DNA of 46,157 bases from Acidobacteriota bacterium (GTDB taxonomy: Bacteria > Acidobacteriota > Terriglobia > Acidiferrales > UBA7541): NCBI GenBank assembly GCA_003224525.1, contig QHZB01000217.1, positions 1-46,157 on the forward strand, given 5' to 3'. Positions 4,921 to 14,075 of this stretch are shown piece by piece (the stretch's first letter is position 1; each line of letters begins with the position of its first letter). A program made the position numbers and the translations under genes. The notes beneath the pieces were generated by a model. That model was not told the DNA's origin, ran no database searches, and saw nothing but the letters and a program-made list of their open reading frames with translations.

Positions 4921-5062
4921 AATTCAATTTGCAGGCAAAGGAAGCGGGGAAGGCTGTGTGAATCGGCCGCGGTCCCGCCACTGTGATCGGCTGAAAAGCC
5001 GTAAGCCAGGCCACCCTTCCATGCCGCATAGGGCCGCGCTCTTCGCGAGAAAGAGCGATGCC
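4921..5062 (+). ncRNA. Cobalamin riboswitch aptamer (first)
   Basis: The conserved cobalamin aptamer blocks appear in order: GCGGGGAAGG near 4944, GTGTGAATC near 4956, CGGTCCCGCCACTGTGAT near 4970, and a B12-box-like GCCAGGCCACCC near 5004-5015. The B12 box departs slightly from the usual GCCAGGAGACC. It lies between a promoter and a terminator hairpin, directly before btuF, as expected for cobalamin-repressed uptake genes. Confidence 0.9.
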
Positions 5063-5064
5063 GG

Positions 5065-5094
5065 AAGCCCCAAGGTGTCTCGTGGGGCTTTTTT
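5065..5094 (+). terminator. Riboswitch-controlled intrinsic terminator
   Basis: AAGCCCC (5065-5071) pairs with GGGGCTT (5084-5090) around a 12-nt loop, and the stem runs into six T residues (5089-5094). Placed after the cobalamin aptamer and before btuF, it is the natural expression platform: cobalamin binding would favour termination. Confidence 0.85.
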
Positions 5095-8116: not shown

Positions 8117-8164
8117 TCTTCTCCTTAACCCCAACCCTGCGGCCTCGTGCTGCAGACCACATTC

Positions 8165-8400
8165 ACCGCGAACTTCGTGCTCGGGAAGACGGATTGCCGG
8201 TTCCAGCCTGCCTCTTCGGAATCGCCAAGTAGTAAGCCGTCGCCGCCGCGCGACTGTAAGGCGGATTAAGTGAATGCGCAGGCCACTGCGGCCAGTCGCT
8301 CCTTCGCTGGGCGACGCCGCGGGAAGGCCCCGCAACGGTCCTGATTCGAACGGGCCGGAGCTACCGCCAAGCCAGGAGACCGGCGAAGTTCGCAGCCGTG
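8165..8400 (+). ncRNA. Cobalamin riboswitch (second), upstream of btuB
   Basis: The blocks GTGCTCGGGAAGACGG (near 8178), CCGCGCGACTGTAAGGCGG (near 8246) and a perfect B12 box GCCAGGAGACCGG (8371-8383) appear in order. The arm between the ACTGTAA block and the B12 box is enlarged to about 110 nt with GC-rich hairpins. I do not see a clear terminator before the btuB start at 8463, so control at the ribosome-binding site (GCGGAGG) is the more likely mechanism. This is inference. Confidence 0.88.
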
Positions 8401-8462
8401 CGATTCATATTTGTCGCATCGGACAACCTTCAACTCCCGCGCGAGAGGGAGCGGAGGATAAA

Positions 8463-12032: not shown

Positions 12033-13511
12033 ATGGCGAAATTCACTCCAGAGGAAACGTCCATCGCCCCCGAAGTCCTGGCGAAATACGAGCCCGTCAT
12101 CGGCCTGGAAGTCCACGTCCAGCTGCTCACCAGAACGAAAATCTTCTGCGGCTGCTCGACGCGCTTCGGCGATCCGCCGAACACCAACGTGTGCCCCGTG
12201 TGTCTCGGCTTGCCCGGAACTCTCCCCGTCCTGAACAAACGCGCCGTCGAAATGGCCATGCGCGCCTCGCTGGCGCTGAATTGCACGGTCCACGAGCATT
12301 CGCGCTTCGCCCGCAAAAACTATTTCTACCCGGACCTGCCCAAGGGCTACCAAATCTCGCAATACGAATCGCCGCTCGCTACCGGCGGCTGGCTTGAAGT
12401 TGGTGGCGCCATAAGACGCATCGGCATCACGCGCCTACACCTGGAAGAAGACGCCGCAAAAAATCTTCACGAAGGCTTCGCGCAATCCACCCAGAAGACA
12501 TACATCGACTACAACCGCTGCGGCACCCCGCTCAGCGAAATCGTCTCCGAGCCGGACATGCGCACACCCGAAGAGGCCTACGCCTACCTCACCACGCTCC
12601 GCCAGATCCTCCTCTACACCGGCGTCAGCGATTGCAACATGGAAGAAGGCTCGCTGCGCTGCGACGCCAACGTCAGCGTGCGCCAGCGCGGCTCGAAGGA
12701 GTTCGGCACCAAGGTCGAGGTAAAAAATCTCAACTCCTTCCGTTACCTCCAAAAAGCCCTCGAATACGAAATCGACCGCCACATCGGCGTCCTCGAATCC
12801 GGGGGCCGCATCTCGCAAGAAACCCGCCTCTGGAACCAGGCCGAAAGCCACACCGTCTCCATGCGTTCAAAAGAAAAGGCCCACGACTACCGCTATTTCC
12901 CCGAGCCGGACCTCCTTCCCGTCCACGTGAGCGCCGCCTGGCGGGACGAAATCCTGCGCACCCTCCCTGAACTCCCCGAAGCCAAGCGCGCCCGCTTCGT
13001 TAGCTCCTACGACATCACGCCTTATGACGCCGAAGTCTTGACTACTTCACGGACCCTTGCCGATTATTTTGAAGCCGTGGTCAAAGCCGGAGCCCCCGGC
13101 AAAGCCGCCGCCAACTGGATGCAGACCGAGCTTCTTCGCGGCTTGAAGGACTCCGGCAAGGAAATTAATGCCAGTCCAGTCGCGCCCGCCGCGCTCGCTG
13201 AATTGGTGAAGCTAGTCGAATCCGCCAAAATCACCGGCGCCATCGGGAAAAAAGTTTTCGCCACCATGTTCGAATCCGGCCGCGGTGCAGCAGAGATTAT
13301 CGCCGCCGAAGGCCTCGGCGCGCAGGTCAGCGCCGCCGCCATCGAACAAGCCGCCCGCGAAATCATCGCCAAAGACCCCGCGAACGTCGCCAAGTTCAAA
13401 GCCGGCAACGAAGGCGTCTTCAAGTTTTTCGTCGGACAGGTCATGAAGGCCACGCGCGGCCAAGCCAGCCCGCAGGCCGTCAGCGATATCCTGCGCAAGC
13501 TGCTGTTCTAA
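12033..13511 (+). CDS. gatB: Aspartyl/glutamyl-tRNA(Asn/Gln) amidotransferase subunit B
   Basis: The protein has 492 residues, the usual GatB length. It starts with YEPVIGLEVHVQLLT, then IFCGCSTRFGDPPNTNVCPVC carrying the zinc-binding cysteines, followed by LPGTLPVLN and the kinase-like core (GYQISQYESP, LHLEEDAAKN, NRCGTPLSEIVSEPD, GSLRCDANVSVR), and ends in the YqeY-like tRNA-binding tail. GatB activates the glutamate or aspartate carboxyl on misacylated tRNA for amidation with ammonia from GatA. gatA and gatC are not adjacent, as is common in this phylum. It begins 41 bp after the DUF6580 gene. Confidence 0.96.
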   Translation: MAKFTPEETSIAPEVLAKYEPVIGLEVHVQLLTRTKIFCGCSTRFGDPPNTNVCPVCLGLPGTLPVLNKRAVEMAMRASLALNCTVHEHSRFARKNYFYPDLPKGYQISQYESPLATGGWLEVGGAIRRIGITRLHLEEDAAKNLHEGFAQSTQKTYIDYNRCGTPLSEIVSEPDMRTPEEAYAYLTTLRQILLYTGVSDCNMEEGSLRCDANVSVRQRGSKEFGTKVEVKNLNSFRYLQKALEYEIDRHIGVLESGGRISQETRLWNQAESHTVSMRSKEKAHDYRYFPEPDLLPVHVSAAWRDEILRTLPELPEAKRARFVSSYDITPYDAEVLTTSRTLADYFEAVVKAGAPGKAAANWMQTELLRGLKDSGKEINASPVAPAALAELVKLVESAKITGAIGKKVFATMFESGRGAAEIIAAEGLGAQVSAAAIEQAAREIIAKDPANVAKFKAGNEGVFKFFVGQVMKATRGQASPQAVSDILRKLLF

Positions 13512-13613: not shown

Positions 13614-14075
13614 ATGCTCAAAGTAGGTTCCAAAGCTCCCGCCTTCCGCCTCCAATCCGACGAAGGCCAAGAAGTCGCGCTCAAAGACTTCGCGGGTCAG
13701 CGTGTCCTGCTCTTTTTATTCCCCAAAGCCAACACCTCTGGTTGAACGATCGAAGCGTCCGAGTTTCGCGACGCAAAAGAAGACTTCGACAAGCTCGGCG
13801 TCGCCATCCTCGGCATGAGCGCCGATCCCGTCAAAGCCCAAGCCGCGTTCAAGGCCAAGCAAAATCTTAATTTTCCGTTGCTCAGCGATCCCACCCACAA
13901 GACCATCCAAAAGTTCGGCGCCTGGCAGAGAAAACAATTCATGGGCCGCACCTTCATGGGCATCGTGCGCAGTTCCTTCCTAATCGGCAAAACCGGCAAG
14001 ATCGAGGAAGTCTGGCCCCTCGTCAAAGCCAAAGGCCACCCCGCCGCAGTCCTAAAACGCCTCTCGCAGAAATAG
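13614..14075 (+). CDS. BCP/PrxQ-type peroxiredoxin with TGA (probable selenocysteine) at the catalytic position
   Basis: Reading through one TGA gives a 153-residue peroxiredoxin of normal BCP length. MLKVGSKAPAFRLQSDEG is the usual N-terminus. The active-site loop reads PKANTSG-TGA-TIEASEFRD, where family members have NTPGCTTEA...FRD, so the TGA at 13743-13745 (residue 44) replaces exactly the peroxidatic Cys. Thr41 and the active-site Arg119 (GIVRSSFLI) are kept, as are GMSAD and FPLLSDP. No Cys exists anywhere, and the PrxQ resolving position (five residues on) is Ser, so it would be a 1-Sec enzyme. The frame on both sides of the TGA is fully family-like, which argues against decay. Selenocysteine insertion is inferred and needs SelB, SelC, SelA and SelD elsewhere in the genome. 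Alternatives are a sequencing error or a fresh nonsense mutation. Family role: reduction of hydrogen and organic peroxides in the cytoplasm. Confidence 0.8.
13746..13774 (+). promoter_or_regulatory. Candidate bacterial SECIS hairpin for the in-frame TGA
   Basis: Downstream of the TGA, GCGTC (13755-13759) pairs with GACGC (13770-13774), and CGA (13760-13762) pairs with TCG (13766-13768), leaving one bulged base (C13769) and the loop GTT (13763-13765). The loop starts 17 nt after the TGA. Known bacterial SECIS elements sit inside the coding region about 16-37 nt after UGA, have a small apical loop with G (often GU) at its start, and often a bulge in the stem. All three features fit. The fold was made by eye. 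Confidence 0.6.

Follow-up and report, generated by a model that had tools for sequence, protein, structure and literature searches.

The window, that is, the whole stretch of 46,157 nucleotides analysed here, is contig C370 of a draft genome of 6.47 Mb (516 contigs; completeness 98.15%, contamination 2.8%). It contains a forward-strand open reading frame that starts with an ATG at 13614, ends with a TAG at 14073–14075 and encodes 153 residues when an internal TGA is read as an amino acid. This TGA, which corresponds to residue 44 in the context NTSG-U-TIEASEFRD, is the sole in-frame stop inside the frame, as the original prediction had stated. It had also been anticipated that standard gene callers would truncate the product to a start at 13815; an in-frame ATG does exist at that position, although a caller obeying the stop could also start later or miss the gene. 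The upstream neighbour, which from its translation we take to be gatB-like, was present (tblastn) in fetched loci both of homologues with TGA at codon 44 (denoted here as Sec forms) and of those with a Cys codon (Cys forms). The coordinates of all these elements are collected in Table 1.

Table 1. Elements of the peroxiredoxin locus, in window coordinates
Feature	Position	Strand	Basis
Gene for a probable Sec-containing Bcp/PrxQ peroxiredoxin	13614–14075	+	Translation, PF00578, NF006960, AlphaFold, Foldseek
Probable Sec44 codon TGA, peroxidatic position	13743–13745	+	Codon survey of 106 distinct homologous DNAs: 56 TGA, 50 TGC/TGT
Thr41 codon, P-x3-T-x2-U active-site motif	13734–13736	+	Invariant in alignment A1; T in 56 of 56 Sec forms
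Codon of the conserved active-site residue Arg119	13968–13970	+	Invariant in alignment A1
Ser49 codon TCC, +5 position, within the hairpin	13758–13760	+	Residue counts, Sec vs. Cys forms
Putative bacterial SECIS: 8-bp hairpin with a single-base bulge in its 3' strand	13755–13774	+	Comparative test, codon bias
Upstream neighbour gene, gatB-like, not part of the enzyme	12033–13511	+	Adjoins the gene; conserved

The assignment of the product to the Bcp/PrxQ family came from several sources. The translation matches PF00578 (E 2.2e-35) and scores 167 bits against the Bcp equivalog model NF006960, whose cut-off is 140, and its best solved relatives are mostly bacterioferritin comigratory proteins by name. 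Both the PxxxTxx(C/U) motif and the active-site Arg are present, with P37, T41, C/U44 and R119 being invariant in an alignment of 23 sequences (A1), so the conservation of Thr41 and Arg119 and the length of 153 residues put forward in the original prediction hold. An AlphaFold model derived from A1, with Cys in place of Sec, had a pLDDT of 95.4 and placed residue 44 close to the start of a helix comprising residues 42–60, and the best 20 Foldseek matches of this model in the PDB were mostly Bcp/PrxQ proteins, with some matches labelled alkyl hydroperoxide reductase. The PrxQ of Xanthomonas campestris (5iph and 3gkm) shares the fold (TM 0.91; rmsd 1.7 and 1.9; identity 35 and 34%), but its peroxidatic residue is a Cys, in contrast to the probable Sec of the window protein. 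Presumably, its resolving Cys also lies at a different place, and the structure title shows a C84S mutant.

A key piece of information came from the codon found at position 44 in the relatives, since the TGA had been proposed to fall exactly at the site of the peroxidatic Cys. This codon was read in 112 homologues, including the window, 61 of which carry TGA and 51 TGC or TGT; once identical DNAs were removed, 106 distinct DNAs remained, 56 with TGA and 50 with TGC or TGT, and thus the position alternates between Sec and Cys codons and does not show random stops. As these 106 DNAs comprise the best matches plus 40 stretches chosen from the listed rows of the relatives, TGA rows first, the proportion of 56 to 50 does not represent a prevalence. 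Left out of the fetched set were L023, L066 and L067, which duplicate the window, L024 and L036, respectively, and L068, which corresponds to SelD. Among the matches listed, the genus (36 genomes, the window's included) shows the Sec form in 30 and the Cys form in 5 (G297, G299, G302, G330 and G331), and for G298 no close PrxQ copy appeared. Extending the count to 81 relatives gave 47 genomes with the Sec form among the matches listed, again counting the window's own: 30 in the genus, 8 in the rest of the family and 9 in the rest of the class.

These data bear on the notion that the TGA is a nonsense mutation or a sequencing error, in which case the locus would encode a dead or truncated peroxiredoxin or would contain a misread Cys codon. 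A single base separates TGA from the Cys codons and the genome is a draft, which would make such an event easy to envisage; however, the presence of the same TGA in more than half of the distinct DNAs, from many assemblies, in effect refutes it. In addition, in a sample of 25 Sec homologues with at least 60% identity and gap-free alignment, the median dN/dS was 0.17 before the TGA (computable in 22) and 0.22 after it (computable in 23), indicating purifying selection on either side and, specifically, that the reading frame 3' of the TGA is under such selection. Considering also that the hairpin described below is kept in TGA forms but not in Cys forms, both sequencing error and pseudogene were rejected, and the chances of this explanation are practically negligible.

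A few irregular copies were observed in the same searches. Among the matches listed for the phylum sample and the relatives, the single case of a TAG or TAA within a match was G368:C100, a distant second copy that contains one TGA and one TAG. This copy, together with G356:C11 and G362:C7, forms a set of distant second copies (40–42% identity, one TGA each) in genomes whose best copy is of the Cys type. In G299, G355 and G361, the single TGA is not at the catalytic codon, which is TGC; in the two latter, it is found 107 residues past that codon, near the C-terminus. Finally, the PrxQ copy of G344:C68 appears as two overlapping matches in different frames, with three TGA codons in the N-terminal piece, which may mean either that the gene is broken or that the assembly is wrong at this place.

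The search for the selenium decoding genes had been named beforehand as a test of the selenoprotein proposal, and selA, selB, selC and selD were all found in the genome. SelB (364 bits), SelA (568 bits) and SelD (351 bits) each scored over the cut-off, and SelD has an in-frame TGA of its own near the N-terminus (AAG-U-AAKLSPG). The tRNA-Sec, with anticodon TCA, scored 63.8 bits; because the tRNA model, which gave 14 matches in the genome, also recognizes plain tRNA-Ser loci, the assignment was decided by ARAGORN, which on four loci called three plain tRNA-Ser and one tRNA-Sec. SelA over the cut-off is present in 191 of the 297 genomes of the phylum sample and in 73 of the 81 relatives. In the phylum sample, all nine genomes with a PrxQ TGA among the matches listed have SelA, compared with the overall 191 of 297, and in family f2 (16 genomes among the matches listed), strong SelA was found in 5 of 5 genomes with the TGA vs. 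2 of the 11 that have none (p 0.005, Fisher test). Likewise, SelA exceeds the cut-off in 45 of the 47 Sec-form genomes of the relatives set (host genome counted in, among the matches listed), the exceptions being G307, in which a SelA fragment lies at the edge of a contig, and G321, with weak pieces only. The five Cys-form genomes of the genus all have SelA and, therefore, loss of the machinery does not account for their Cys forms.

An intact frame would also be preserved by any other readthrough, for instance, if UGA were decoded as Trp, Cys or a similar amino acid by means of suppression or an altered code. In contrast to what an altered code would produce, the long open reading frames of the window, among them the gatB-like gene of 492 codons, lack in-frame TGA in an ORF list made under table 11; UGA is therefore not a general sense codon, and general reassignment was rejected. 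The alternation of TGA and Cys codons at codon 44 across the 106 DNAs, as well as the coexistence of a complete Sec machinery and a SECIS-like hairpin, also argues against it, making insertion of a different amino acid very improbable.

Bacterial SECIS elements are hairpins located just 3' of the UGA, with a small apical loop containing a G. A conserved hairpin beside the UGA, which was absent from the original prediction, spans nucleotides 12–31 downstream of the T of the TGA and has an apical loop G-U-U at 13763–13765, and 54 of the 56 Sec forms have G as the first base of this loop. Accepting the bulge at either of two places, the complete eight-pair structure was found in 43 of 56 Sec forms vs. 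1 of 50 Cys forms, while in 2000 rounds of synonymous recoding of the Sec forms it was reached, on average, by 2.2 and never by more than 9 of 56. In the 13 remaining Sec forms, at least one of the eight pairs is missing, and L124 and L125 fold differently. Two pairs show compensatory changes: pair 19–23, which couples a Phe codon (TTT or TTC) to the adjacent codon, is A-U in 42 forms, G-C in 9 and unpaired in 5, and pair 14–29 is G-C in 50 and A-U in 3. Codon choice within the stem of the Sec forms is strongly skewed, with GCG making up 0.92 of Ala, TCC 0.98 of Ser and GAG 1.00 of Glu codons, compared to 0.31, 0.24 and 0.46, respectively, in pooled use. The median pS in the same 25 Sec homologues was 0.19 in the hairpin, compared with 0.55 upstream of the TGA and 0.47 downstream of the hairpin; this low value, confined to the hairpin, indicates that its conservation exceeds that expected from shared descent alone. 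A plain fold of the 58 nucleotides from the UGA gave a different structure, with no excess stability (z +0.40) and without the hairpin, and the energy of the hairpin, taken sequence by sequence, was significant in only 14 of the 56 Sec forms, compared with 5 of the 50 Cys forms; for these reasons, the case for a SECIS is built on the comparison. On that basis, the hairpin fits a bacterial SECIS element.

A further observation concerns the 5' side of the UGA. The Gly codon directly preceding it (13740–13742 in the window) is GGT, a codon found at this place in 36 of 39 Sec forms vs. 1 of 8 Cys forms of the family clade, and in 8 of 17 vs. 6 of 42 outside it, while GGT represents 13% of the Gly codons pooled over these genes. 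The combination GGT-TGA is also present in SelD (L068) and in L139, another peroxiredoxin gene of the host described below. This preference may reflect an influence of the 5' context on how the UGA is recoded.

The codon, the machinery and the hairpin, taken together, make it very probable that the gene encodes a selenoprotein, as originally predicted: a Bcp/PrxQ peroxiredoxin in which UGA codon 44 specifies Sec under the direction of the downstream hairpin, with incorporation in vivo being what we infer from the sequence evidence. Briefly, SelB and the Sec-tRNA(UCA) would decode the UGA guided by the putative SECIS. Sec44, aided by Thr41 and Arg119, would then reduce H2O2 or organic hydroperoxides, the likely substrates, becoming a selenenic acid, and this intermediate would be re-reduced by an outside thiol, the presumed reductant, in a 1-Sec cycle. 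An active-site Sec would be shared with PrxU of Eubacterium acidaminophilum, which was reportedly described as a Sec-containing peroxiredoxin by Sohling in 2001. The model peroxi_PrxU (NF040737, 233 positions), which we take to stand for that protein, gave 41 bits with the window peroxiredoxin, under its cut-off of 270.

The existence of Sec peroxiredoxins in bacteria, which the original prediction had invoked from family knowledge, is documented. In the portions of the sources at hand, the COG1225 (Bcp) peroxiredoxin with a TxxU motif is listed among prokaryotic selenoproteins (PMC9312934), 43 COG1225 selenoprotein sequences are given for the Sargasso Sea set (PMC1088965), Prx (PF00578, TxxU) is a listed selenoprotein family (PMC13188914), and 91 'Peroxiredoxin (Prx)' selenoproteins are counted in 78 organisms, with no COG shown (PMC5029168). 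Because Sec-containing COG1225/Bcp proteins are a listed family, the gene belongs to an already known kind, to which it adds another member. It resembles them in family, in the TxxU position and in the hairpin beside the UGA, whereas the acidobacterial clade has Ser (once Thr) at +5, a residue that those portions do not state for the earlier members. The table of PMC1794560, as available, attributes to Prx 12 selenoproteins, with five Cys-to-Sec and no Sec-to-Cys events, and to Acidobacteria four selenoproteins in three families.

The replacement of the resolving Cys by Ser was likewise part of the original prediction, and the translation agrees: the Cys that many PrxQ carry at +5, and that marks the 2-Cys subtype, is absent, its place being taken by Ser49, and no Cys is found anywhere in the translated protein. 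With Ser where the resolving Cys would be and not a single Cys elsewhere, the protein would require an outside thiol, and a 1-Sec enzyme is the simplest reading. In this respect, it would share a one-chalcogen cycle with outside reductant with AhpE of Mycobacterium tuberculosis (1xxu), titled as a 1-Cys peroxiredoxin, although the relation between both proteins is weaker (43.5 bits, TM 0.83). The +5 residue of the 56 Sec forms is Ser in 44, Cys in 7, Asn in 3, Thr in 1 and Ile in 1, and it is Cys in 39 of the 50 Cys forms. The resolving Cys is thus absent from 49 of 56 Sec forms vs. 11 of 50 Cys forms (Fisher 4e-12), a statistic that ignores kinship and, because firm pairs are few, is not a count of independent events. 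In the family clade, none of the 39 Sec forms has it, in contrast to five of the eight Cys forms. Any Cys at all is lacking in 35 of 56 Sec forms, and in 28 of 39 within that clade.

Part of this pattern might have its origin in the RNA. Codon 49 lies within the stem, and TCC is used in 43 of the 44 Ser cases, compared with the pooled 0.24; as the hairpin overlaps this codon, RNA constraint may contribute to Ser49. A stricter version, according to which the protein is a selenoprotein whose Ser49 is chiefly a by-product of the SECIS, the resolving Cys having been lost for RNA reasons, must nevertheless face the fact that seven Sec forms retain Cys (TGC) at +5. Several of them (L060, L062 and L063) still make an eight-bp stem, with the bulge moved one base and, therefore, the SECIS tolerates Cys at this place. 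This stricter version is considered unlikely, and RNA constraint and a dispensability of the Cys brought about by Sec may both act.

On the tree, forms with Cys at both positions are nested within groups of Sec/Ser forms, and their hosts retain SelA. The best tree contains 13 Sec/Cys changes, counted without orientation, at least five of them forced by starred branches, the midpoint root serving for drawing only. In an underpowered test of independent pairs on starred branches (five pairs; median p 0.5), the mean number in which Sec and resolving Cys changed the same way was 0.0, with 1.9 changing in the other, expected way and 3.1 showing no difference. These data can be integrated, somewhat tentatively and with chances judged a little short of even, in a model in which PrxQ swapped repeatedly between 2-Cys and 1-Sec forms in the acidobacterial lineage, the gain of Sec going with the loss of the resolving Cys. 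A search of the literature for this link returned no bacterial Sec peroxiredoxin by title, which is weak evidence of absence. If the model is correct, the genus would represent a natural experiment on the benefit of Sec, with a selenenic acid that has no need of an internal resolving thiol, and the close Sec/Ser and Cys/Cys relatives in SelA-containing hosts would provide natural variant pairs with which to ask whether Sec replaces the resolving Cys. Sec-to-Cys returns in the genus, if real, would depart from the available table of PMC1794560, the direction here being unoriented. A candidate for such a return is L129 (G364), a Cys form with Asn at +5 and no other Cys that groups with the Sec form L117 (G359) on a starred branch. 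A hairpin remnant is possible in L129 (p 0.024).

The practical consequence of these findings is that gene calling with TGA as a stop would miss or shorten this gene in most of the genus (30 of 36 genomes, among the matches listed), concealing an antioxidant selenoenzyme and the use of selenium by the lineage. A PF00578 search of the host genome gave 24 matches, four of them with one TGA: the window peroxiredoxin, L139, L142 and L148. L139 (contig C90), whose frame is open over 262 codons, encodes a peroxiredoxin with the motif TGGU, L142 (contig C51) has a UPFC Prx-like domain with the in-frame TGA, and L148 (contig C117) is a WASWUGC protein for which WAxxUGC_long was the best match in NCBIfam (156 bits across 113 residues, under the whole-protein cut-off of 300). 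Being of the AhpC/TSA type with the TGA at a redox position, these three are likely further selenoproteins, judging from their sequences. Elsewhere in the window, two matches to cobalamin riboswitches, at 4921–5066 and 8158–8402, exceeded the gathering score; they lie next to genes that, from their translations, we take to be B12 transport-like and to encode a TonB-type receptor.
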